Source: Rhodobiaceae bacterium (lineage in GTDB: Bacteria > Pseudomonadota > Alphaproteobacteria > Parvibaculales > Parvibaculaceae). From it: a stretch of DNA of 13,056 nt. Both the position numbers and the translations under genes were made by a program. The stretch is taken from the NCBI GenBank assembly GCA_002401305.2, contig NVSO02000174.1, forward strand, positions 1 to 13,056, given 5' to 3'. A model generated the notes under the pieces. The model did not search any database and was not told where the DNA came from. It saw only the letters and a program-made list of their open reading frames with translations. Of this stretch, positions 1,305 through 13,056 are shown piece by piece; the stretch's first letter is position 1, and the number at the start of each line of letters is the position of its first letter.

Positions 1305-1372
1305 ATCCCCATACAAATTAGAGGGTTGAACCAAGATCGCATGAAGCGACGGACTGACCCATGGAGGATACA

Positions 1373-2686
1373 ATGAGTAAAGCAGCAATTGCCGACGCTA
1401 ATGATTTTGCCGCAACCGCCACAAAATCTGATGTGGAAGAGATCCAAGCCGCGGCGCGCGTCCGTGCGTATTCAATGCCCTTGGAAGATATTGATGTAAG
1501 TGACCAGACGTTATTTTTGAACAATACGATCTGGCCCTATTTCGAACGTCTGCGTAAAGAGGATCCTGTTCACTTTAATGCCGAAAGTGACTACGGGCCT
1601 TATTGGTCGATTACGAAATACAAAGACATCATGGCCGTAGATACCAACCACGCCGTTTTCTCATCTGAGTCTGGCCTCGGCGGCATCACCATTCGTGATC
1701 CAATGGATGACTTTCGTCTTCCCATGTTCATCGCGATGGATCAGCCCAAGCACGATGCCCAACGTAAAGTGGTAAGCCCGATTGTGGCACCTAACAATCT
1801 GGATAAGCTTGAAAGTGTGATCCGGGAGCGTGCATGCACAATTCTCGACGACCTACCGATCGGCGAAGAGTTTGACTGGGTAGACCGCGTGTCCATCGAG
1901 CTGACCACGCAAATGCTCGCAACCTTGTTTGATTTCCCGTGGGAAGACCGTCGCAAGTTGACCCGCTGGTCCGATGTGGCGACCGCAGATCTAGACTCCG
2001 GCATTATTGATAGCATGGAGCAGCGCCGCGAAGAGCTACGCGAGTGCGGTGAATATTTCATGCGCTTGTGGAATGAACGCGTCAACGCGCGTGAGCCTGG
2101 GGGCGATTTGATCTCCATGTTGGCGCACGGTGAATCGACACGCAACATGCCGTTCGAAGAATTCCTCGGCAATCTGATTTTGCTGATTGTGGGTGGTAAT
2201 GACACCACTAGGAACTCCATCACCGGCGGCGTGTACGAAATGGACCGGAACCCGGGTGAGTTTGAAAAACTAAAAGCCAACCCAGAGCTCATTCCCAACA
2301 TGGTCTCTGAGATCATTCGTTGGCAGACACCGCTCGCTCACATGCGTCGGACAGCTTTGGAAGATACAGAGCTTGGTGGCAAAAAGATCAAGAAGGGCGA
2401 CAAAGTCGTCATGTGGTATGTGTCGGGTAACAGAGATGACGAAGTAATCCCGGATGCCGATGAGTTCATCATTGATCGCCCGCGTGCACGTAATCACTTG
2501 TCATTTGGCTTTGGTATTCACCGTTGTGTGGGTAACCGTTTGGCTGAAATGCAGTTGCGCATTATCTGGGAAGAAATTCTAAAACGCTTCCCAACCATCA
2601 AAGTTATTGGAGAGCCAAAACGCATCTATTCCAACTTTGTAAAAGGGTATGAATCCATGACGGTGATCATTCCTGAGAAATACTAA
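1373..2686 (+). CDS. cyp153: Cytochrome P450, CYP153 family (terminal alkane/fatty-acid hydroxylase type)
   Basis: A 437-residue soluble bacterial P450. Visible motifs are the I-helix oxygen-activation segment G274-G-N-D-T-T-R-N281, the K-helix ExxR (E313 to R316), and the heme-ligand loop F378-G-F-G-I-H-R-C385-V-G, with C385 as the axial thiolate. The stretches [30 protein letters not shown] and [18 protein letters not shown] are what I know from CYP153 enzymes, which hydroxylate the terminal carbon of medium-chain alkanes, alcohols and fatty acids. Known members need a 2Fe-2S ferredoxin and a ferredoxin reductase; neither is encoded here. I chose the ATG at 1373 over the in-frame ATG at 1361 because GGAGG at 1363-1367 lies 5 nt before it and inside the longer reading. 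A strong terminator follows, suggesting a single-gene transcript. Chain-length preference cannot be read from sequence. Confidence 0.92.
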
Positions 2687-2707
2687 GCAGAATCTTTAGT
2701 CAGCTTG

Positions 2708-2744
2708 AACCGCCTCCTTCTCCCGAAGGGGGCGGTTTTGTTTT
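2708..2744 (+). terminator. Intrinsic terminator after the P450
   Basis: Arms 2708-2720 and 2725-2737 form a 13-bp stem with one G-T wobble around a TCCC tetraloop, followed by TTTTGTTTT at 2736-2744. It begins 22 nt after the P450 stop. This should separate P450 transcription from the downstream acyl-CoA synthetase. Confidence 0.9.
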
Positions 2745-2880
2745 GGAAATAACAACCTTGACCAAAAGTCAGGATAGTTTGCGAACTCCTCAAAAAAGTG
2801 ACCGCACAGCTTAGCTGACCTCTCGACTCAGTGCGTTCCTCCTCGTATGAAAGAGTCCTATTTGATTGGGAGAGAAGAAA

Positions 2881-4749
2881 ATGGAACCGTTTAAGATCGC
2901 CACACTCGCAGATATTGAAGCAGTGGAGGCAACCCCGTGGGAGGCGCGTGAAAAGGCGACATCTACGTACGATATCTTTGCACAAAGCGCCCATGACTAC
3001 GGCGATGCCCCGGCTCTGACATTTGTCATGACCGGTGCCCCGGATAGCAAAGCTTATACGTCCTCCTATTCCCAATTATTTGCAGACATTACTCAGACAG
3101 CAAACCTGTTCCATGCGCATGGCATCAACAAAGACGACGTCGTGTCCTATTTGCTGCCCAACTTGCCAGAAACCCATCACGTCATTTGGGGTGGTCAGGC
3201 AGCCGGCATCGTCAACGCGGTCAACCCCTTGCTCGACAGTGAGCACATCATCGGCATCATGAATGCGGCACAGGCAAAAATATTAGTCACGCTGCCACCG
3301 TTGCCCGGGCAAGACATGTGGGAGAAGGCAGCCCAAGTGGCGGCCAAGGTGCCGACGTTGGAAAAAATCTTTGTCGTCAATCCGTTGCGTTATGTAGAAG
3401 GCATGGAAGATGCGCCGCTACCGGTCCCCGCCTTGGACGGGATTGAGGTCCTCGATTTTGCAAGTGAGCGCGCCAAGCATCCAAATGATCAATTAATCAG
3501 TAAACGCGTTTTTGAACATGAAGATGTCTGCGCCTACTTCCACACAGGCGGCACCACTGGCGTGCCAAAACTTGCGCTGCACACCCATGCAAACGAAGTC
3601 TACATGGCGTGGGTCTTCTCCAATCTAGATATGTCCGCAGCCGGCGAGGCCTTCATTTGCGGCCTGCCACTCTTCCATGTGAATGCGGTGATTGTAACAG
3701 GCCTTGGTACATTCCAAGGCGGCACCCATGTCATTTTGCTCACCCCTCAAGGATACCGCGCACCAGATGTGATCCCCAATTTTTGGAAAACAGTGGAGCG
3801 CTTCAAGGCCGTAAATTTCTCTGGCGTCCCAACCATCCTCTCCGCACTGCTCGAATTGCCGCGCGACGGCATAGACATCTCTTCGTTGAGATTTGCAGGC
3901 TGTGGGGCAGCGCCTCTGTCGCAGGAGTTGTTTGACCGCTTTGAAAAAGCCTCAGGTCTCTCCATCTTGGAAGGCTACGGCCTAACAGAGGGAACATGTG
4001 CCAGTGCGATGAACCCGCCGCACGGTGAACGCCGCTGTGGCTCGGTGGGCCTGCGCCTGCCGTACCAAAAAATCGCCACAGCCATACTCAAAGAAGACGG
4101 GTCATTGGACCATTTCTGCGGTGTCGATGAACCCGGTGTCGTTCTCATTTCAGGCCCCAATGTCATCAGGGGCTATAAACAAGAGCACGCCACCAAAGGG
4201 TTGATTTTGGAAGGTGAGTGGCTCAACACCGGTGACCTTGGTCGCCTTGATGCGGAAGGTTATCTCTGGTTGGTCGGTCGGGAAAAAGACTTGATCATTC
4301 GCGGTGGTCACAACATTGACCCCGCAGCGATTGAAGAGCCTTTGGCAACACACCCCGATGTTGCCTTAGTCGCCGCTATTGGCCAAGTGGACGCTTACGC
4401 TGGTGAAGTGCCAATTGCATATGTCACTTTGCGCCCCGGTGCCACCGTCACAAGTGACGCATTGGTTGGGTTTGCCCGAGAAAACATCTCCGAGCGGGCC
4501 GCCATTCCAAAGCGCGTCATAATCATTGAAACCATGCCTGTTACCGCAGTTGGCAAAATCTTTAAGCCGCCCTTGCGCGTGGAAGCTGCAAGTTGGTCGC
4601 TTCAAGAAGCCCTCACTCAGGCCAATCTGAAAACAGGCCTAACGGTGCGCAATGATCCCAAGCGAGGCTTGGTTGCGACATTGTCTGGTGAGGGTTTGAA
4701 CGAAGCTGTGAGCGCCCTTAAAGGATTCCCGGTTTTGTTCGAGCAATAA
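2881..4749 (+). CDS. Acyl-CoA synthetase (AMP-binding, ANL superfamily)
   Basis: A 622-residue adenylate-forming ligase that would activate a carboxylic acid with ATP and CoA to acyl-CoA. Motifs in order: the phosphate loop T222-G-G-T-T-G-V-P-K230, the A5 segment E364-G-Y-G-L-T-E370, the ATP-ribose aspartate in NTGD (D452), the hinge region KDLIIRGGHNI around R474, and the C-terminal GK with K559 as the likely adenylation lysine. The set is complete, so it should be active. The length (about 620-630) matches long FadD-like proteins annotated simply as acyl-CoA synthetase. The ATG at 2881 follows the purine-rich GGGAGAGAAG (2868-2877); an in-frame TTG at 2866 would place that ribosome site inside the gene, so I rejected it. 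It lies 194 bp after the P450 and beyond a strong terminator, so it likely has its own promoter, though I found no convincing one in 2745-2880. A fatty-acid substrate is inferred from context. Confidence 0.9.
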   Translation: MEPFKIATLADIEAVEATPWEAREKATSTYDIFAQSAHDYGDAPALTFVMTGAPDSKAYTSSYSQLFADITQTANLFHAHGINKDDVVSYLLPNLPETHHVIWGGQAAGIVNAVNPLLDSEHIIGIMNAAQAKILVTLPPLPGQDMWEKAAQVAAKVPTLEKIFVVNPLRYVEGMEDAPLPVPALDGIEVLDFASERAKHPNDQLISKRVFEHEDVCAYFHTGGTTGVPKLALHTHANEVYMAWVFSNLDMSAAGEAFICGLPLFHVNAVIVTGLGTFQGGTHVILLTPQGYRAPDVIPNFWKTVERFKAVNFSGVPTILSALLELPRDGIDISSLRFAGCGAAPLSQELFDRFEKASGLSILEGYGLTEGTCASAMNPPHGERRCGSVGLRLPYQKIATAILKEDGSLDHFCGVDEPGVVLISGPNVIRGYKQEHATKGLILEGEWLNTGDLGRLDAEGYLWLVGREKDLIIRGGHNIDPAAIEEPLATHPDVALVAAIGQVDAYAGEVPIAYVTLRPGATVTSDALVGFARENISERAAIPKRVIIIETMPVTAVGKIFKPPLRVEAASWSLQEALTQANLKTGLTVRNDPKRGLVATLSGEGLNEAVSALKGFPVLFEQ

Positions 4750-4818: not shown

Positions 4819-7800
4819 TTACAGCTGACTGGGCCGCAGGAAAGCTTGGGGCCCTAGGCCATCCTCTTTCCGACTGTTCCACAAGGTCCAGAAATTCGCT
4901 TTCCACTGCTTGGCTTCAGTGGTCTGGTTTGGATAATGCTGTGCCACAAGCGACAAAACTTGCTCTCTTTCAAGCGGAACACTGTTTGAGAAATTGCCAA
5001 ACCCAGCATTGAGATAGACAAATTCGCGGGTCACAAAGGTTGGTCCCTTTGTCACGGTATTAGTCACCGCACCAGTTGCCAGTTCATCCGTCGAAATTTC
5101 CAAAGTCAGATCATCAGCGCCGTCTCTGTTAAAGTCAGCCAGCGCCAACCGCCTATGAGCGAGCACTCCATCGGGGGTGGCGCGCGGCAAGCGGGCGGCA
5201 AGCGGTAGCGCGTCAGTCGCGTCAAAGAAGGTGCCCGACCCATCATTCACCAAGAGCCGAAGAACAGTTGGTTGGGCCAAGTAAAGCGGTTGATGAGGCT
5301 GCGTCCCAATAAGGAGGTCGAGGTCGCCGTCCGCATCAATGTCACCGTGGGCAACAGACCAAACTGTCCAGCGTGGGTTAAGCCATGCTGAATGTTCAGG
5401 CAACGCGTCTTCAGAAACATAGTCGAGCTTGCCTTCTGCGTTGCTCATCAGCAGCACAAGCGGCTCGCCAGCCCCTCCATCATTACCGGGAGCCATAAAG
5501 ATGTCGTCACGGCCATCATCATTGAAATCAGCGATCAAGACATGCGTGGGTGAGCGACGAACCATACGTTTGTCCGAGCTGTCGATCATATCAGTGGAAC
5601 CCAGTCCCCCAGGCCCAAGCGTGACATAAAGGGTCGGCGGTACATCCGCGTAAGGTGCACTTGATTTGGTGGACGCCCAAAGCACTAAATAATCTTGGCG
5701 ATGGTCACCGTTAAATTCGCCTTTGTAGACACTAGCCGGCACCAAATCATCACGCGGCGGTGGGGGCAGGTCTAACGAAGAGATATCCACATCGCTCAAT
5801 TGTTTGGGCAATTGCGGCAGCAGGGGCATCCGCTTAGCCGACATCGATGTTGCCTGATTTTCCAACAAAGCTTGTTGAGCAACAATTTCTGCAGACAGAG
5901 CCGTCAAGGTAACGAGCTCGGGAGCCGGCATCAGCGCCAAATCAGCAACGGCGAAGCTGAACGGCGCATCGGGAATGTAGGGCGCAAACATTTTGGCCAT
6001 GAGTGCGCCAGAATAAGGTGCCCCCGGCTGGTAGGACAATGCCCTAACAGCCGTGCCTGGCGAGACAGGGGCGCCCGGCTGGTAACCCAGCAGGGAAGTG
6101 CTGAACGCCACCGTGAACGGGGCTTCAGGTTGATAGGTGGAGAGGCTCGCTGCCAAATAATGTGTCAACGGCGCTTGAGGTTGGTAACGCAACGTTGCAC
6201 CTGCACTGGCCAAAGCGAGAGGTGATTGCGGTTGGTACGTTAAGGCCTGATGCGCCACCAAATGCGTCATCGGAAGCTCAGCTTGGTAACGCAAGCTCAC
6301 CGTCACGCTCTGCGCAGACAGCGGAGAGGTCGGCAAATACCGAAGGCTATTATGGGCATCCAATAAAGTGAATGGCAATTCGGGAAGTCGAGTAAAGCTG
6401 AGCTGTGCAAAATGCTCGGTCATCGGCGCATTTGGCAGATACTGAAGGGCCTGCTCAGCAGCTGCGATGGAAATTGGCGCCTGTGGCTGATAGCGCAAGG
6501 TGGCTACTGCGAGGCTGCCGCGCACCGGCGCGCTTGGGAGGTAGGCAAATGTGGGGGTTGCCCCTGCGACCGTGAACGGTGCTTCAGGAATGCGTGCAAA
6601 TAACGGCGGCAGGTTACCCTGCGTGATAGGCGCTTGAGGTTGGTACGCCAAAGACAAGTGCGCAATTGAATATCCGAAGGGTGCCTCGGGGTTACGATTT
6701 AGCAATGAGCGCATGTGCGCAGGGCTAAGCGGGGCAGTGACATCGTAGGTGAGGAAGGCTCTCGCGCTGGTAAGCTTGAAGGGCGCACTCGGTGCGTGTT
6801 TCAGAAGCTCTGCCGCTGTCAGGAGAGTGAATGGGAATTCCGGTAGCCGCTTGAGTGCATGATGGGCGGAGAGGGCGGCGATCGGCGCGTTCGGCTGATA
6901 CCGCAAAGCCGCTTCACTCAGAATGAACGTCACGGGGGGATTCGGCTGATATCGCAATATTACGGAAACATCGACCGTAGTGAACGGAAGTTCGGGTAGT
7001 CGCTGAAGGGCGACACTCATTACAGCGCCATCGAGCGGAGCGGAGGCTTGATAGCGCAACATGGTTTTGGCGCTGGCAACGGCCACGGGGGATGAAGGGG
7101 CGTAGCGTAAGGCTGATAACGCATCAAGGTATGTGAATGGAAGTTCAGGCTGTCGTGTAAGGGCCAGCTGAGCGACATGTTTGCTCATGGGAGCGGCCGG
7201 TTGGAACGCAAGACTAAGGCGCGCCAGCGCAGGGCTAACAGGTGAATGAGGCAAATATAGGAACGTGCTGCGTGCGACGGCGACGGTAACAGGGGCCGTA
7301 GACTGGTAGCGCATCAGATTGGCAACCGAGTTTGTCGAGAAAGGCGCGCTCGGTTGGTGCATGAAAGTACGCGCGACAGTCGCCACGGAGAACGGTGGTT
7401 CAGGAATGCGCCGAAGTAGTTTTCTCATGGCGCGCGGTGTAAGCGGCGCTGCAACTTCATAAGAAAGGGCCGCCTGAGCTGCGGTCAAGTCGATCGGCGC
7501 GGTTGGCATGTGGCGAAGAATATATACTCCGTGCGCATATGTGAATGGGGGTTCGGCTAAGCGGTCGAAGGAACGCACAATAGTTCTAATGCTGAGCGGC
7601 GCTTGTGGTTGATAACTTAAACCGGCATGGGCAGTTCGCAGGGCAATAGGAGCACTCGGTTGGAAACGAAGTGTTTGGTGAGCCGCTGCCACGGTGAAGG
7701 GAGCTTCAGGCTGTCTTGCGAGTAAGCCTCGCATTACCCGAGAGCTAAGCGGGGCGGTCACACGGTAGTTGAGTGCGTTGTAGGCTGCCAGTTGTGTGAG

Positions 7801-8805
7801 GGGAGGCGAGGGTTGAAACCCAAGGGCGCTCCGCGCAAGCAGCGGACTGAAGGGAGATTCCGGAATGCGTGTGAAGCTGGATGCGGCAACTTTCCCAGAA
7901 AGAGGAGCTGAGGGAAGGTAGCGCAGGGTAGACGCGGCACTCATGTAGGATATCGGCGCATTGGGTGCGCGTCGCAGTGCGGTTGCCGCCAAGGAATAGG
8001 TAGCCGGCGATGAAGGCTGAAACGTCAAAGCCCGTGATGCCGCGATCCCGGTAAGGGGGGCCGACGCACTGAACCGCAACGCAAGGGCTCCAGCTTGTGC
8101 GCTCAACGGCGCCTGAGGTTGATAGGAAAAAGCGAAATCTATCAGGTCGGCTGAAAGAGGGGCGCTAGGCTGATAAGTGAAAGCGCGGCGCATTATTTGA
8201 GGTGTGAACGGAAGTTCAGGAGATGCCTTGGTAGCCAATTTTCTTTTTTGGCTTTTGGAGGCTTTGGGCGCTGCTTCAATCACCAGGGGCTTTTTCGGTG
8301 TAACGGGTTTTTCTTGGGCAACCGGTGTTTTCCGCGCAACCGGTGTGGGCGCCACTTTAGGAGCCCGAACCTCTTGTGGCGGAACCGCAGGTGCAAGTGC
8401 AGGTACAGGGGCCGCAGGAGAGGCGAGCGCCGCAGGACGCTTCAACCGAAGCACCGGCCAACCGGTTCCAGGTTCACGCGGTGCGTTGGCATCCGGTAAA
8501 TTGATAATAATACTGGGGTTTGAAAAATTGACCGCATCTCTAGGACGCACGACGGGCTGATTGGTGTTCAACCGTGGCGGCAACCGCAATTTGATACGCT
8601 GAGTTGCGCTCAAGGGCGCGTCGTGACCCGTGTTAGCGCTATCTGCGTCGTGCAAATCTTCCTGAACCCCAAGGGAGGGAGGCCATTTTAGTTTGAGTTT
8701 TTCAGGGGAGGCTTGAGCAGAAAGATCCGGAATCGCGAAAAACGATGCGAGGGAAATTCCCAAGACCGTTGCCCCGATGTATCGGAAAACCTGCTTTACC
8801 AGCAT
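4819..8805 (-). CDS. Giant exported 17-residue-repeat protein with C-terminal FG-GAP/VCBS-like domain
   Basis: I do not recognise this 1,328-residue protein as a whole. Residues 1-30 look like a signal peptide: basic start, hydrophobic GATVLGISLASFFAI, likely cut after LSA30. Residues 31-193 form a Pro/Ala/Lys-rich linker containing three similar short motifs (KLKLKWPPSL 36-45, IKLRLPPRL 71-79, VLRLKRPAAL 118-127). Residues 194-959 are 45 tandem 17-residue units. Residues 1020-1328 hold four D-x-[DN]-x-D-G-like FG-GAP/VCBS motifs (about 1029-1041, 1091-1103, 1154-1166 and 1221-1235), as in calcium-binding blades of secreted proteins. There is no cysteine anywhere, and no tryptophan in the repeats. 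The ATG at 8803-8805 follows AAAGGTG at 8810-8816. It stands alone between a bidirectional terminator and a divergent promoter region, so no partner gene hints at function. A cell-surface or periplasm-spanning structural or adhesive role is inference only. Domain layout is certain; function is unknown. Confidence 0.88.
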   Translation of the reverse strand: MLVKQVFRYIGATVLGISLASFFAIPDLSAQASPEKLKLKWPPSLGVQEDLHDADSANTGHDAPLSATQRIKLRLPPRLNTNQPVVRPRDAVNFSNPSIIINLPDANAPREPGTGWPVLRLKRPAALASPAAPVPALAPAVPPQEVRAPKVAPTPVARKTPVAQEKPVTPKKPLVIEAAPKASKSQKRKLATKASPELPFTPQIMRRAFTYQPSAPLSADLIDFAFSYQPQAPLSAQAGALALRFSASAPLTGIAASRALTFQPSSPATYSLAATALRRAPNAPISYMSAASTLRYLPSAPLSGKVAASSFTRIPESPFSPLLARSALGFQPSPPLTQLAAYNALNYRVTAPLSSRVMRGLLARQPEAPFTVAAAHQTLRFQPSAPIALRTAHAGLSYQPQAPLSIRTIVRSFDRLAEPPFTYAHGVYILRHMPTAPIDLTAAQAALSYEVAAPLTPRAMRKLLRRIPEPPFSVATVARTFMHQPSAPFSTNSVANLMRYQSTAPVTVAVARSTFLYLPHSPVSPALARLSLAFQPAAPMSKHVAQLALTRQPELPFTYLDALSALRYAPSSPVAVASAKTMLRYQASAPLDGAVMSVALQRLPELPFTTVDVSVILRYQPNPPVTFILSEAALRYQPNAPIAALSAHHALKRLPEFPFTLLTAAELLKHAPSAPFKLTSARAFLTYDVTAPLSPAHMRSLLNRNPEAPFGYSIAHLSLAYQPQAPITQGNLPPLFARIPEAPFTVAGATPTFAYLPSAPVRGSLAVATLRYQPQAPISIAAAEQALQYLPNAPMTEHFAQLSFTRLPELPFTLLDAHNSLRYLPTSPLSAQSVTVSLRYQAELPMTHLVAHQALTYQPQSPLALASAGATLRYQPQAPLTHYLAASLSTYQPEAPFTVAFSTSLLGYQPGAPVSPGTAVRALSYQPGAPYSGALMAKMFAPYIPDAPFSFAVADLALMPAPELVTLTALSAEIVAQQALLENQATSMSAKRMPLLPQLPKQLSDVDISSLDLPPPPRDDLVPASVYKGEFNGDHRQDYLVLWASTKSSAPYADVPPTLYVTLGPGGLGSTDMIDSSDKRMVRRSPTHVLIADFNDDGRDDIFMAPGNDGGAGEPLVLLMSNAEGKLDYVSEDALPEHSAWLNPRWTVWSVAHGDIDADGDLDLLIGTQPHQPLYLAQPTVLRLLVNDGSGTFFDATDALPLAARLPRATPDGVLAHRRLALADFNRDGADDLTLEISTDELATGAVTNTVTKGPTFVTREFVYLNAGFGNFSNSVPLEREQVLSLVAQHYPNQTTEAKQWKANFWTLWNSRKEDGLGPQAFLRPSQL
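4822..5748 (-). other. FG-GAP/VCBS-like C-terminal domain of the repeat protein
   Basis: Residues 1020-1328 contain GEFNGDHRQDYLV, IADFNDDGRDDIF, GDIDADGDLDLLI and ADFNRDGADDLTL, spaced about 63-67 residues apart. This is the spacing and acidic-loop pattern of FG-GAP/VCBS blades, which bind calcium in extracellular proteins. Four motifs suggest a partial propeller or one completed by divergent blades. The first motif (NGDHRQD) lacks the glycine after the third acidic position and is the most degenerate. Confidence 0.75.
5929..8226 (-). repeat. Tandem array of 45 x 51-bp (17-residue) coding units
   Basis: Residues 194-959 divide into 45 consecutive units of exactly 17 residues with no gap, except one extra Pro (residue 942) before the last unit. 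Typical unit: Y-Q-P-S-A-P-L-S-x-x-x-A-x-x-A-L-x. Hand counts by column: position 6 is Pro in 45/45; position 3 is Pro in 37/45; position 1 is Y, F, R or H in 44/45; position 8 is S or T in 36/45 (Asp in 2 more); position 16 is L or F in 43/45. Units differ widely elsewhere, so this is an old, selected array rather than a recent slippage product. Pro6-hydrophobic7-Ser/Thr8 looks like a helix N-cap with hydrophobic staple, suggesting each unit is a short helix after a PxxP turn. Confidence 0.95.
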
Positions 8806-9136: not shown

Positions 9137-9553
9137 ATGACCCGTGTGGTTCAATTTAATAGCCCCTTTTTGCTGGGGTTCGACCAGATTGAGCGTTTGC
9201 TCGACCGGGTGACAAAATCAGCCGAAGGCTACCCCCCTTACAATGTCGAACAGCAGGTGACGCAGGAGGGCCAAAAGCTCTCCATTACACTGGCTGTCGC
9301 GGGGTTTGAGCCGACCGATCTGTCTGTGACCATCGAGGAGCGCCAACTCGTCATTCGAGGGCGCCAGAGCGAGGATGAGGACAAAACTTTCCTCCATCGC
9401 GGTATTGCTGCGCGCCAGTTTCAACGGACATTTGTGCTGGCAGATGGTATGGTAGTGGACAAGGCCAAGTTAGAAAATGGATTATTGGCCATTTCCTTGT
9501 TCCGGCCGGAGCCCTCCAGCCTGATCCAAACGATTCCGATTACACAAGCTTAG
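9137..9553 (+). CDS. Small heat-shock protein, Hsp20 / IbpA type
   Basis: A 138-residue alpha-crystallin-domain chaperone that holds unfolding proteins for later refolding by DnaK/ClpB in the cytoplasm. The N-terminal TRVVQFNSPFLLGFDQIERLLDRV and the following YPPYNVEQ match bacterial IbpA-like proteins. The crystallin domain spans about residues 35-130, with the characteristic ALAVAGF-type segment seen here as LAVAGFEPTDLSV and the closing LENGLLAISL. The C-terminal I-P-I (within IQTIPI) is the I-x-I/V tail motif that drives oligomer assembly. Its ribosome site is AAAGGA at 9126-9131, 5 nt before the ATG. It is followed after 62 nt by DUF1150, a pairing typical of Alphaproteobacteria, and is probably heat-controlled given the upstream region. 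Confidence 0.93.
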   Translation: MTRVVQFNSPFLLGFDQIERLLDRVTKSAEGYPPYNVEQQVTQEGQKLSITLAVAGFEPTDLSVTIEERQLVIRGRQSEDEDKTFLHRGIAARQFQRTFVLADGMVVDKAKLENGLLAISLFRPEPSSLIQTIPITQA

Positions 9554-9615
9554 GCGTGTAAAATCACCCATTTAAAACCATGTGTTTGAAGAATTAGCGT
9601 TCAAAGGAGTAAGAC

Positions 9616-9891
9616 ATGCACAATTCATTTGAAGATACGTCCGCAAAAATCGGCGAGAACATGAGCCAAGAAGCCTTACTGGCTTTGGGTGTGCAAAAGA
9701 TGGTCTACATCCGTGAAACCACACTGGAAGAGCTGGGCGAGGAGCTGCAGGCGCAGATCACAGTCGAAGAAGGCGAAGTGCTCTTCGGCGTCTTTGATGC
9801 CGATGGCTCGCCCCTTGCCGTTCTTAACGACCGAGATGCGGCATTTGCTGGCGCACGCCAGTACAATTTTGAGCCCGTCAGCGTTCACTAA
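9616..9891 (+). CDS. DUF1150 family small protein
   Basis: A 91-residue protein of unknown function. The block MSQEALLALGVQKMVYIRETTLEEL, followed by GEVLFGVFDADGSPLAVLNDRDAAFAGARQYNFEPVSVH, matches what I know of DUF1150, an alphaproteobacterial family often encoded just after hsp20. The ATG at 9616 has AAAGGAG at 9603-9609 (6-nt spacing); an internal ATG at 9661 has no comparable site. Part of that ribosome site is the 3' arm of a TTTGAA/TTCAAA inverted repeat (9585-9590 and 9600-9605), a possible translation control. It likely shares a transcript with hsp20, so a stress-related role is suggested by context only. Confidence 0.82.
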   Translation: MHNSFEDTSAKIGENMSQEALLALGVQKMVYIRETTLEELGEELQAQITVEEGEVLFGVFDADGSPLAVLNDRDAAFAGARQYNFEPVSVH

Positions 9892-9958
9892 AAACAACGC
9901 CGCGTTCAAATGCTGAGCCGTGACGTAAACCGCTGTAGCAAGCCGCCGCGGACCACTC

Positions 9959-10423
9959 CTAGGCGGCAGTGGTTGCGGACGGCTCAGTCAAAAGGGCGTA
10001 GAGGGCGGCGGTGTCTTCCGTGCCGCGTAGTTTTTCTACAATGGAGGGGTTGCGCAACAACCGAGAAATGCGGGCCAATGCTTTGAGGTGGTCAGCGCCA
10101 GCTGTTTCTGGTGCGAGCAGTAGAAAAATCAAATCCACAGGCCGGTCATCAATTGAGTCGAAATCAATCGGCGTATCTAGGCGCGCAAACAGGCCGTAAA
10201 GCCGAGTGGCTTCTGCAAGTTTGCCATGGGGAATTGCAATGCCCTGGCCAACACCAGTAGACCCAAGCCGCTCGCGTTCGAGCAGCGTTTCAAATATATG
10301 ACGTTCAGACAGGCCTGTAACCTCAGCGGCACGTGCGCTGAGTTCTTGCAGAGCTTGTTTCTTGCTGCTGACTTTCAGGTGGGCGACAACGCCTTCTGGA
10401 GCAACGAGATCCTGCAGATCCAT
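9959..10423 (-). CDS. ptsN: Nitrogen PTS enzyme IIA (EIIA-Ntr)
   Basis: A 154-residue protein, the usual PtsN length, with the PTS EIIA type-2 (fructose/mannitol-type) fold. The phosphorylated histidine is H66 in GIAIPHGK. Nearby RERLGSTGVGQG and LDTPIDFDSIDDRPVDLIFLLLAP are typical. It receives phosphate from EI-Ntr through NPr and regulates partners such as potassium transport and sensor kinases rather than moving sugar. I chose the ATG at 10421-10423, preceded by AGGAATTAAA; an in-frame ATG at 10493-10495 would add 24 residues encoded across a GC-rich hairpin and is unlikely. It lies 126 bp after hpf in the rpoN-hpf-ptsN cluster. A GCCGCC/GGCGGC inverted repeat (9942-9947 and 9962-9967) at its 3' end lacks a T-run and is at best a weak terminator. 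Confidence 0.95.
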   Translation of the reverse strand: MDLQDLVAPEGVVAHLKVSSKKQALQELSARAAEVTGLSERHIFETLLERERLGSTGVGQGIAIPHGKLAEATRLYGLFARLDTPIDFDSIDDRPVDLIFLLLAPETAGADHLKALARISRLLRNPSIVEKLRGTEDTAALYALLTEPSATTAA

Positions 10424-10449
10424 TTTAATTCCTATATTCCATACCAGTC

Positions 10450-10489
10450 GCCCGGCGCCATTTCCGAAGAATCGGATACAACGCCGGGC
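10450..10489 (-). promoter_or_regulatory. Two-tier hairpin between hpf and ptsN
   Basis: A perfect 8-bp outer stem (GCCCGGCG at 10450-10457 with CGCCGGGC at 10482-10489) encloses an inner 5-bp stem (TCCGA 10463-10467 with TCGGA 10472-10476) closed by a 4-nt loop. It lies 27 nt upstream of the ptsN start and 60 nt past the hpf stop. No T-run follows on the minus strand, so it looks like an mRNA-stability or processing element or an attenuator, not a simple terminator. Confidence 0.6.
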
Positions 10490-10549
10490 AAACAATAGTC
10501 AGAGACCTATCACCGATAGCTCTTATCTGTAAGCAGAATGAGAAACGCC

Positions 10550-11134
10550 CTATAAAGTGGCGGATTCCCGCCCTGCATCAATCCAGCCGATGTGGCCGTC
10601 ATCCCGGCGATACACCAAGTTGACACCTCCACCGGAATTTCGAAAAATCACAAATGGCACGTCAGAAATGTCCATCTGCATGGCCGCATCACTTACAGCC
10701 AAAAACGGTATCGCTTTTGTGCTTTCAGAAATAACCACCGGCTCTAGGGGGGCATCCGAAGTGTCGTCAAATTTATTCGCTTCCGAAGCCAGCGTAACAT
10801 AGGGTACGTCGAGAGCAGGCAAAGGTGACTTATTCTCGTTGTGATGGTCTTTCAGTCGGCGTTTGTAGCGTCGCAAGCGCGTCTCCAAGCGCTCAAGAGC
10901 CGCATCAAAACAACCATAAATATCGCCGGTGCTGGCTTGCGTATTAAGCCGCATTCCGGAGCTTAGATGAACCGCGCAATCGGCACGAAATTCATGTCCG
11001 CGTTTGGAAAAGGTGACTTGCGCGTCGACTGGTCTACCAAAGTATTTTGTAACACTTGTGCTCAATCGATCTGTCACATGTGAACGAAGCGCATCTCCGA
11101 TGTCGAGATGAATGCCTGTCACTTGTACCTGCAT
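10550..11134 (-). CDS. hpf: Ribosome hibernation promoting factor, long form
   Basis: A 194-residue long-type HPF (RaiA/S30AE family), which pairs 70S ribosomes into inactive 100S dimers in stationary phase or stress. Residues 1-105 form the S30AE domain, with MQVQVTGIHLDIGDALRSHV at the start and the basic ALERLETRLRRYKRRLKDH helix that contacts the 16S rRNA channel. A variable linker (about 106-135) is followed by the C-terminal dimerisation domain IPFLAVSDAAMQMDISDVPFVIFRN...VNLVYRRDDGHIGWID. Both domains are complete. The ATG at 11132-11134 follows AGAAAGG with 7-nt spacing. It sits between rpoN and ptsN in the order usual for Proteobacteria, but the 409-bp gap from rpoN implies its own promoter (candidate at 11435-11463). 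Confidence 0.95.
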   Translation of the reverse strand: MQVQVTGIHLDIGDALRSHVTDRLSTSVTKYFGRPVDAQVTFSKRGHEFRADCAVHLSSGMRLNTQASTGDIYGCFDAALERLETRLRRYKRRLKDHHNENKSPLPALDVPYVTLASEANKFDDTSDAPLEPVVISESTKAIPFLAVSDAAMQMDISDVPFVIFRNSGGGVNLVYRRDDGHIGWIDAGRESATL

Positions 11135-11434
11135 GCGAGAACCTTTCTGGGCGCTATCGGGCTGAAAAACAAACCCTCATGCCCACCACTGGATTACGGG
11201 AACCTCAAGACGAGGCCGTGTAGATCGGCTTTGTCTGCATTCCAGACAAACCATGCATATGCATATCAACACGCAACCAATAGTGAGGTGAAAAAACTCA
11301 CCGCCAACAGTCGGGAAAACCCATACAAAGGGAGCACCTAACCACTGTCCATTTTACTGGTCCTATCGACCCGATTGCCAGTTTTCCTTCACATCCCAAG
11401 GCTGCACGTCAGCCTACGGAAGTAGAGCGAACGG
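11135..11434 (-). promoter_or_regulatory. Long, palindrome-rich hpf leader
   Basis: I support no gene in this 300-bp stretch. It contains a perfect 8-bp inverted repeat TTTGTCTG / CAGACAAA (11230-11237 and 11243-11250, 5-nt loop), a perfect 12-bp palindrome ATGCATATGCAT (11253-11264), and a GGTGA/TCACC hairpin (11287-11302). If transcription starts at the candidate promoter upstream, these lie in a leader of about 295 nt. They could be operators for a second promoter or RNA structures. Confidence 0.4.
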
Positions 11435-11463
11435 AAACTAGTGATCAGGCTCCAGAGTGTCAA
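11435..11463 (-). promoter_or_regulatory. Sigma-70-type promoter candidate for hpf-ptsN
   Basis: On the minus strand, a perfect TTGACA (11458-11463) is followed by a 17-nt spacer and TAGTTT (11435-11440), which matches the -10 consensus at 3 of 6 positions, including the first two bases and the last. It lies 80 nt past the rpoN stop and would allow hpf and ptsN to be made independently of rpoN. I looked for the general-stress GGAAC/CGTT pattern in the same gap and did not find it in the right orientation. Confidence 0.45.
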
Positions 11464-11543
11464 CAGAGCACTGCAGGAACGAAATAAAACGCAAACAAAA
11501 CAACAACTTAGTATAGGAGGATCAGGGGAGGAATCAAAGCGAT

Positions 11544-13056
11544 TTACGCAAAAGCTTTCTTCTCGCGTCGACGTTGTACCGAAGAGGGAATGTTCAATGC
11601 TTCTCGGTATTTGGCAACTGTTCGGCGCGCAATATCGATGCCTTCGTCTTTTAATAGAGCAACGATACGGTCATCCGAAAGGATCTTTTTTGTATCTTCT
11701 TGTGCAATGAGATCTTTTATTCTGTGGCGCACAGATTCTGCAGAATAAGCATCTCCGCCAGAAGTGGAGGCGATAGAGGAAGAGAAGAAATACTTCAGTT
11801 CGAAAATCCCGCGTGTCGTTCCCATGTACTTATTAGAAGTCACGCGGCTGACGGTGGATTCGTGCATGGAAATCGCATCCGCAACGGTTTTCAAATTCAG
11901 CGGCCGCAAATGACTCACCCCGTGGGTCAGAAAACCATCCTGTTGGCGAACGATCTCTGTAGAGACTTTTAGAATAGTACGGGCACGTTGATCTAGACTT
12001 TTCACCAACCAATTGGCATTTGCAAGGCAGTCGGTAAGATAGGTTTTGGTCTCTTTGTCCCGGGAGCGGCTCGCGACTTCAGCATAATATTGTGAGTTCA
12101 CAAGGACGCGCGGCAACGTTTCGGTATTCAATTCAATCGCCCAGCCGCCATCAATTTTGTTGCGCACAAAAACATCTGGCACGATGGGCTGAATCGGTTC
12201 GGCCCCAAATGCATGACCCGGCTTAGGGTCGCAGTTACGCACGTCTTCAAGCAGGGAGGTCAAATCCTCTTCGTCAATATCACAAACTTTCAACAGCTTG
12301 CTCAACTCACGACGGGCAAAAAGTTCCAGGTTTTCCAGAAAAAGCGCCATCACCGGATCAAACCGGTCTTTCTCGATCAGTTGGAGTGTGAGGCATTCTT
12401 TTAGGTCGCGCGCAAACACGCCAGTTGGCTCAAAGGTCTGAAGTTTAGCAAGCAACAGCTCAAGCTCTTCAATAGGCACCCCCAGCCGGTCGCTAGACTC
12501 TTCTAAAGTCTCCGTCAGGTAACCCGCTTCAGTGAGTTGATCAATAAGATAGGCGCCAATGAAGCGTTCGCGTTCTGATGAAATGGCAACACTAAGTTGC
12601 TCGGTCAGATGCTCTTTGAGGTCGAGTTCTTTGGTGAGCGTGCTTTCAAAACTTCCCTCTCCGTCAAAAGACCCGCCGCTGCTGGTCTTCGAGGACTGCC
12701 AATCAGAACTGCTTGATTGAGGCCCAGCCTCTGCAGCCGCTGTATCATTGGCACGGTCCGCTTTGGATTCATCCGCATACACATTATCGTAGTCGGTGTC
12801 TAAATCGCCTTCCGGTGCAGGCGGTGCTGTGTCTTCGCTCACTGTCAGAGGGGCTGGTTCAATATCGCCCCCCGCCTCGGTTTTGGAGGCATTGTCTAAA
12901 TAGGTTTCGCTGTCTCCGTCGCCTTGTTCGCCGCGGTCGGGTTGGCCGTCTTCATTAGAGGGCTCAAGCAGCGGATTGCGCTCAAGCTCCTGCTCGACAT
13001 AATCGGTGAGTTCAAGGTTGGAGAGTTGCAACAGCTTAATAGCCTGCTGCAATTGC
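11544..13056 (-). CDS. rpoN: RNA polymerase sigma-54 factor, start beyond window edge
   Basis: The visible 503 or so residues lack only the first part of region I: the coding sequence runs off the right edge within the Q-L-Q-Q-A-I-K-L-L-Q-L-S segment. After it comes the acidic, poorly conserved region II (about residues 30-140, rich in D, E and S), the core-binding domain, the helix-turn-helix LKTVADAISMHESTVSRV, and the diagnostic RpoN box ARRTVAKYRE (codons at 11601-11630), which contacts the -24 promoter element. Sigma-54 directs enhancer-dependent transcription, for example of nitrogen-assimilation genes. The protein ends normally with a basic RRREKKAFA tail and TAA at 11544-11546. It is the first gene of the rpoN-hpf-ptsN cluster; lptB would be expected just outside the window. 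Confidence 0.97.
   Translation of the reverse strand, partial: QLQQAIKLLQLSNLELTDYVEQELERNPLLEPSNEDGQPDRGEQGDGDSETYLDNASKTEAGGDIEPAPLTVSEDTAPPAPEGDLDTDYDNVYADESKADRANDTAAAEAGPQSSSSDWQSSKTSSGGSFDGEGSFESTLTKELDLKEHLTEQLSVAISSERERFIGAYLIDQLTEAGYLTETLEESSDRLGVPIEELELLLAKLQTFEPTGVFARDLKECLTLQLIEKDRFDPVMALFLENLELFARRELSKLLKVCDIDEEDLTSLLEDVRNCDPKPGHAFGAEPIQPIVPDVFVRNKIDGGWAIELNTETLPRVLVNSQYYAEVASRSRDKETKTYLTDCLANANWLVKSLDQRARTILKVSTEIVRQQDGFLTHGVSHLRPLNLKTVADAISMHESTVSRVTSNKYMGTTRGIFELKYFFSSSIASTSGGDAYSAESVRHRIKDLIAQEDTKKILSDDRIVALLKDEGIDIARRTVAKYREALNIPSSVQRRREKKAFA

Follow-up and report, generated by a model that had tools for sequence, protein, structure and literature searches.

A 1328-residue protein encoded in the genome of Rhodobiaceae bacterium contains 45 tandem units of 17 residues, and this array is old and unmatched by any known repeat family in the databases searched. 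On our favoured reading, to which we assign a probability of roughly 0.5, an exported protein carries an ancient spacer particular to this lineage, which is built of helical proline-turn units and holds a C-terminal FG-GAP domain at a set distance. Each unit would comprise a turn fixed by the prolines of a P3-x-x-P6 motif, a cap formed by Ser/Thr 8, and roughly nine helical residues with an inner face of A12, A/L15 and L/F16. Together, the 45 units would fix the separation between the FG-GAP domain and the N-terminal region, in a protein located in the periplasm or on the cell surface. Four elements of this reading are inferences: that the protein is exported, that its spacing is under selection, that the units are helical, and that the array serves as a spacer or stalk.

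The array protein and its repeat unit

The window, the whole stretch of 13,056 nucleotides that was analysed, belongs to genome G000; G001 is the only other congeneric genome among the 40 family genomes examined. The features of the array protein and its orthologue are the following.

4819..8805, minus strand: open reading frame of the array protein, 1328 aa (ORF call; orthologue in G001)
8710..8805, minus strand: signal-peptide-like N-terminus, approximate (by eye on the sequence and the alignment with G001)
8227..8709, minus strand: Pro/Lys/Ala-rich N-terminal region with LxLxxP-like motifs, up to residue 193
5929..8226, minus strand: array of 45 units of 17 residues, residues 194-959
5980..5982, minus strand: single inserted residue, Pro 942, shifting unit 45 by one (also in the orthologue)
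5773..5928, minus strand: linker from the array to the FG-GAP domain, residues 960-1011
4822..5772, minus strand: C-terminal FG-GAP (VCBS-type) domain (Pfam)
L009:6475-10656 of G001, minus strand: orthologue, 1393 aa, at the same locus as the G000 gene

The open reading frame stands alone on the minus strand, with a convergent acyl-CoA synthetase gene on one side and a divergent Hsp20 gene on the other. Its product begins, as judged by eye, with a charged start, a hydrophobic stretch and AQA at residues 30-32; the last is AQP in the G001 orthologue, so that the site is not kept. The protein is probably secreted or otherwise exported; no anchor was found in it. The C-terminal domain is recognised by two Pfam models, FG-GAP_3 and FG-GAP, with E values of 1.8e-12 and 1.1e-10 for the whole protein and 4.2e-14 and 4.4e-13 for residues 959-1328, and both models exceed their gathering scores (48.1 bits against 26.9, and 41.5 against 22.1). 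The domain contains DxDxDG motifs resembling calcium-binding sites (by eye) and is probably a ligand- or carbohydrate-binding module of the beta-propeller type. The likeness to FG-GAP/VCBS beta-propeller proteins (PF13517, PF01839) covers this domain, where both models score above their cut-offs, but not the array.

The sequence-only reading had described 45 units of 17 residues with one insertion over 766 residues, and this count is exact (45 x 17 + 1 = 766), as are its tallies of Pro at position 6 (45/45), Pro at position 3 (37/45), Ser/Thr at position 8 (36/45) and Leu/Phe at position 16 (43/45). Units 1-44 share one register, followed by the extra residue and unit 45, and the consensus of the unit is Y/R-Q/L-P-x-A-P-L/F-S/T-x-x-x-A-x-x-A/L-L/F-x. 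Self-identity of the 44 in-register units reaches 0.31, 0.29, 0.35 and 0.28 at lags of 17, 34, 51 and 68 residues, against a maximum of 0.138 over the same lags in 2000 shuffles. The slightly stronger period of 51 residues, or three units, is absent from the earlier description, as are the two classes of units presented below and the C-terminal FG-GAP domain.

The array has sharply defined ends. Against a unit matrix built from the 91 in-register units of the two species, these same units score 16 to 34 bits, and the best-scoring stretches of the G000 protein outside the array reach only -4.4 bits in the N-terminal 193 residues (mean maximum of 1000 shuffled N-termini -5.2, 95% 2.1) and -0.4 bits in the C-terminal part. 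A seed unit in the N-terminal region was rejected, no stretch there standing above shuffles, and an hhalign comparison of the array with the N-terminus, a weak test with two sequences on each side, gave no match. The linker at residues 960-1011 is Ala/Leu-rich in part and kept in G001, and does not represent a 46th unit.

Two minor features of this region were also recorded. Three short LxLxxP-like motifs at residues 37, ~71 and 119 (window 8425-8697, minus strand) are mostly kept in G001 by eye, the strict pattern occurring twice in G000 and once in G001; they are not array units. GC skew is strong over window positions 6001-8500 (0.19 to 0.26 across 1000-base windows whose starts run from 6001 to 7501) and lies between -0.08 and 0.09 elsewhere in the window, probably because of the Pro and Ala codons of the minus strand.

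Age, order and spacing of the units

Tandem Repeats Finder detects no DNA repeat in positions 5800-8300 at a score of 30. Mean identity among the 44 in-register units amounts to 40.5% in DNA and 31.1% in protein, with maxima of 63% and 71%, and the third bases of the invariant proline codon at position 6 are alike in 11 of 43 adjacent pairs, against 13.5 expected from composition (44 codons). The low identity and the randomised third bases indicate that the array was amplified long ago; together with the lack of a DNA repeat, they rule out recent amplification.

The units fall into ordered classes along the array. Positions 1, 4 and 7 covary within units (top z of 9.4 in G000 and 6.0 in G001), and the covariation splits the units into an R1-E4-F7 class and a Y1-x-L/I/V class. 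F7 occurs in 12/13 units with E4 against 2/31 of the others in G000, and in 12/14 against 3/33 in G001; the corresponding figures for R1 are 10/13 against 1/31 and 10/14 against 1/33. Two E4 units are never adjacent, either among the 44 units of G000, of which 13 carry E4 (probability under random placement 0.0067), or among the 47 of G001, of which 14 do (0.0041), the two species not being independent. By hand alignment, 12 of the 13 E4 units of G000 pair with E4 units of G001, and the remaining one pairs with an R1-F7 unit bearing A4. A unit with M12 is followed by an E4 unit in 4/5 cases in G000 and 4/4 in G001, a count that leaves out the last in-register units, 44 and 47, which also carry M12 and are each followed by a D4 unit. 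Between-unit correlation drops from lag 1 to lag 5, with mean z falling from 0.28 to -0.07 in G000 and from 0.21 to -0.08 in G001.

The orthologous array comprises 48 units. In a residue-level alignment, the two arrays differ in length at three places: by 34 residues in G000, and in G001 by another 34 and by a net 51, the last placed as 5 + 46 flanking a 4-residue island. These differences correspond to two, two and three units, and are thus confined to whole units over 731 aligned codons. Outside the array, indels of 3 and 12 are found in the N-terminal region and one of 5 in the C-terminal part. Synonymous sites of the array are saturated between the species, with dS of ~2 and dN of 0.35 by the Nei-Gojobori method, and the same comparison gives dS of 2.3 and dN of 0.08 for residues 959-1328. 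Since the length changes come in whole units despite this saturation, the spacing seems to be under selection. The array sequence drifts while its spacing is kept, a rule that rests on one species pair, the array being present in two genomes only.

Between-species identity is uneven along the unit (42 aligned codons for each position). It is complete at P6 (1.00), high at positions 3 and 16 (0.86) and 12 (0.76), somewhat lower at positions 1, 2 and 8 (0.69), and lowest at positions 9, 13 and 14 (0.26, 0.21 and 0.24). With 45 copies that are ~31% alike and whole-unit changes in one species pair, the array amounts to a natural experiment on the essentials of a repeat: what it must keep here appears to be a pair of prolines, the cap residue and two positions that are small or hydrophobic.

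Conformation of the unit

The earlier proposal of one helix per unit, following the PxxP turn and a Ser/Thr N-cap, draws support from three lines of evidence and meets one contrary result. Variability at positions 9, 13 and 14 against the conservation of P6, 3, 16 and 12 is as expected of one helix face. At the helical angles of 100 and 110 degrees, the mean hydrophobic moment over positions 8-17 surpasses that of shuffles, with z of 1.9 and 3.4 in G000 and 2.3 and 2.4 in G001, whereas at strand angles (160, 170 and 180 degrees) it does not (z of -1.2 to 1.0); in the averaged profile, hydrophobicity peaks at 75-90 degrees. An AlphaFold2 model of six units, computed from 14 in-register rows of the two species, gives each unit a single helix spanning approximately positions 9-17 and contains no strands, at a mean pLDDT of 50.2 and a pTM of 0.20. 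The moment calculated from conservation only, on the other hand, has its main peak at 180 degrees, the strand angle, and another near 90, which counts against a simple helix reading. Taken together, conservation, hydrophobicity and the model suggest one helix per unit. At this model confidence, short helices on a flexible string fit equally well as an ordered stalk, and the rod or superhelix proposed earlier is one possible arrangement of the units. Foldseek, run with the low-confidence model, returned one meaningless match (E 6.9).

These same confidence values could be taken to mean that the array amounts to a polyproline-like linker, disordered over most of its length, its period no more than a leftover of its origin. 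The linker found at the same place in a sister genus is rich in Ala, Pro and Glu with no significant period, and neither array contains Cys, with Trp numbering 0 and 1, both of which would agree with disorder. Drift in such a linker should, however, yield indels of any length, and the arrays differ by whole units only; P6 is invariant though its synonymous third bases are randomised; and the unit classes are ordered. We therefore regard disorder of this kind as rather doubtful. If the units do form regular structure, they might stack into an undescribed solenoid or toroid, with one helix per PxxP turn, a three-unit super-period set by the R1-E4-F7 units and a rod of ~45 steps that grows and is pruned by whole units. 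We hold this more specific arrangement as a tentative possibility; it would constitute a new, very short solenoid building block.

A strand-based fold is suggested by the best profile match in the PDB, a chain named Fiber (3izo_F; E 0.069 with a four-unit and 0.006 with a six-unit profile), from what we take to be the adenovirus fibre; the weaker PDB matches start at E 0.64. The shaft of that fibre is made of beta repeats of about 15 residues, and it shares with the array the rhythm PL-S/T ... L, seen in the alignment as AP-L-S/T...L. Each unit would then be a strand-turn-strand element of a beta spiral that trimerises into a thin rod, as in viral fibres, which the 180-degree peak of the conservation-only moment would fit. 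The 3izo_F alignment, however, contains gaps within units; positions 13-14, where an alternating strand would have to bury a residue, rank with the most variable ones; the hydrophobic moment at strand angles stays within shuffles; and AlphaFold2 predicts, at low confidence, helices in place of strands. A beta spiral is accordingly very improbable.

The spacer reading also has to be weighed against a binding role, in which the short helices, basic and amphipathic, would attach multivalently to lipid, oil droplets or polysaccharide. The arrays carry a net charge of +24 in G000 and +30 in G001, their amphipathicity is modest, and the genome record of the orthologue is titled isolate bin_ce_oilr1.015. 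The helices of apolipoprotein A-I are likewise tandem, amphipathic and punctuated by proline, but their repeat unit has 22 residues, as against the 17-residue PxxP unit here. The predicted helices are short (~9 residues), their hydrophobic moment is only modestly above that of shuffles (z 1.9-3.4), the Pfam scans return no apolipoprotein model, and the cytochrome P450 and acyl-CoA synthetase genes of the window were not detected in the stretches around the sister-genus gene. Surface binding is, on this evidence, an unlikely function of the array.

Distribution of the array and its genomic setting

The suggestion that the repeat is unrecognised, and may form a new family, holds across Pfam, NCBIfam, PHROGs and protein searches. 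Pfam at E<=10 identifies in the whole protein only the two FG-GAP models, and no TPR, Sel1, LRR, HEAT, ankyrin or pentapeptide repeat; in 85 four-unit windows at E<=1, it returns nine scattered families with 1-2 members each, the best match being a leader-peptide family at E 0.015. NCBIfam and PHROGs give no repeat-family match, and the one weak NCBIfam match (E 0.89) falls in the FG-GAP part. Among the best 8000 candidates by shared words in the protein database, there is no match to the whole protein at E<=0.001 or to residues 194-960 at E<=1; neither the protein of the window nor its orthologue appears in the results. None of 117 proteins sharing the C-terminal region carries the unit (six-unit profile, E<=0.01; best 0.71), and PDB sequences give no match to the whole protein. 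The array is likewise unmatched in 72,556 plasmid records and 50,697 phage records, a pattern-based scan of viral contigs gave no confirmed match, and a scan of genome contigs recovered only a G001-like record.

With up to 12 first-look candidates scored per genome, the six-unit profile matches 4 of 385 genomes of the class (G000, G001, G149 and G144) and 2 of 398 genomes of the phylum (G000 and G149). Two of these genomes, G149 and G144, are spurious matches, each at E ~2e-5: the former reflects DNA that repeats in tandem every 51 bp, with the match on the complementary strand of a longer ORF, and the latter a tandem array of 34-bp DNA repeats matched in three reading frames. The repeat of G149 (L029 1497-1701) lies in an ORF encoding a repeated Lys/Ser/Gly unit of 17 residues, and the adjoining ORF is presumably VgrG-like. 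That of G144, an alphaproteobacterium of another family, has 27.6 copies (L030 1466-2400).

Repeats of 17 residues are known elsewhere, for instance the Ser/Thr-rich repeats of the mucin MUC3, and the open-licence literature on 17-residue repeats, some of it on MUC3 and malaria, yielded no paper on the present unit among those listed. In the nearest of them, PMC12452194, the bacterial Buf_EGKCG repeats are described as 17-residue units of signal-peptide-containing precursors, each with two EGKCG motifs and a predicted beta-helix fold; the unit length is the same as in our array, which is devoid of Cys.

Within the family set of 40 genomes, any match to the array protein is limited to four, and the array itself to two. 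The other two, G004 and G008, belong to a sister genus and encode proteins of 769 and 770 aa at the same locus. Their FG-GAP domain is 43-44% identical to that of G000, while the N-terminus is different and an A/P/E-rich linker stands in place of the array. Neither linker matches the array, and their best self-similarity is within shuffles; the G008 linker has its top lag at 17 (0.168), a value that compares with a mean maximum of 0.169 in shuffles (95% 0.183). An hhalign comparison of the array with the alignment of these linkers, again a weak test with two sequences, found no match. The use of an unrelated linker by the sister genus shows that the FG-GAP domain can do without a regular spacer. 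The same domain at the same locus behind a linker of no significant period also suggests that the array is probably a regular spacer or stalk, and provides a built-in comparison for what the array contributes.

In the other three genera of the family (g2, g3 and g5), six loci of 18 kb contain nothing that matches either terminal part of the protein at E 1e-3, and other ORFs adjoin Hsp20 there. Upstream of the minus-strand gene's own start, a cassette of Hsp20, DUF1150, PtsN, HPF and RpoN genes (window 9137-13052) is present at 9/9 family loci examined, and DUF1150 is found in 39/40 family genomes. On the other flank, window positions 1361-4749 hold cytochrome P450 and acyl-CoA synthetase genes in tandem, adjoining a Coq4-domain gene; the acyl-CoA synthetase scores above the cut-off of model PRK07529.
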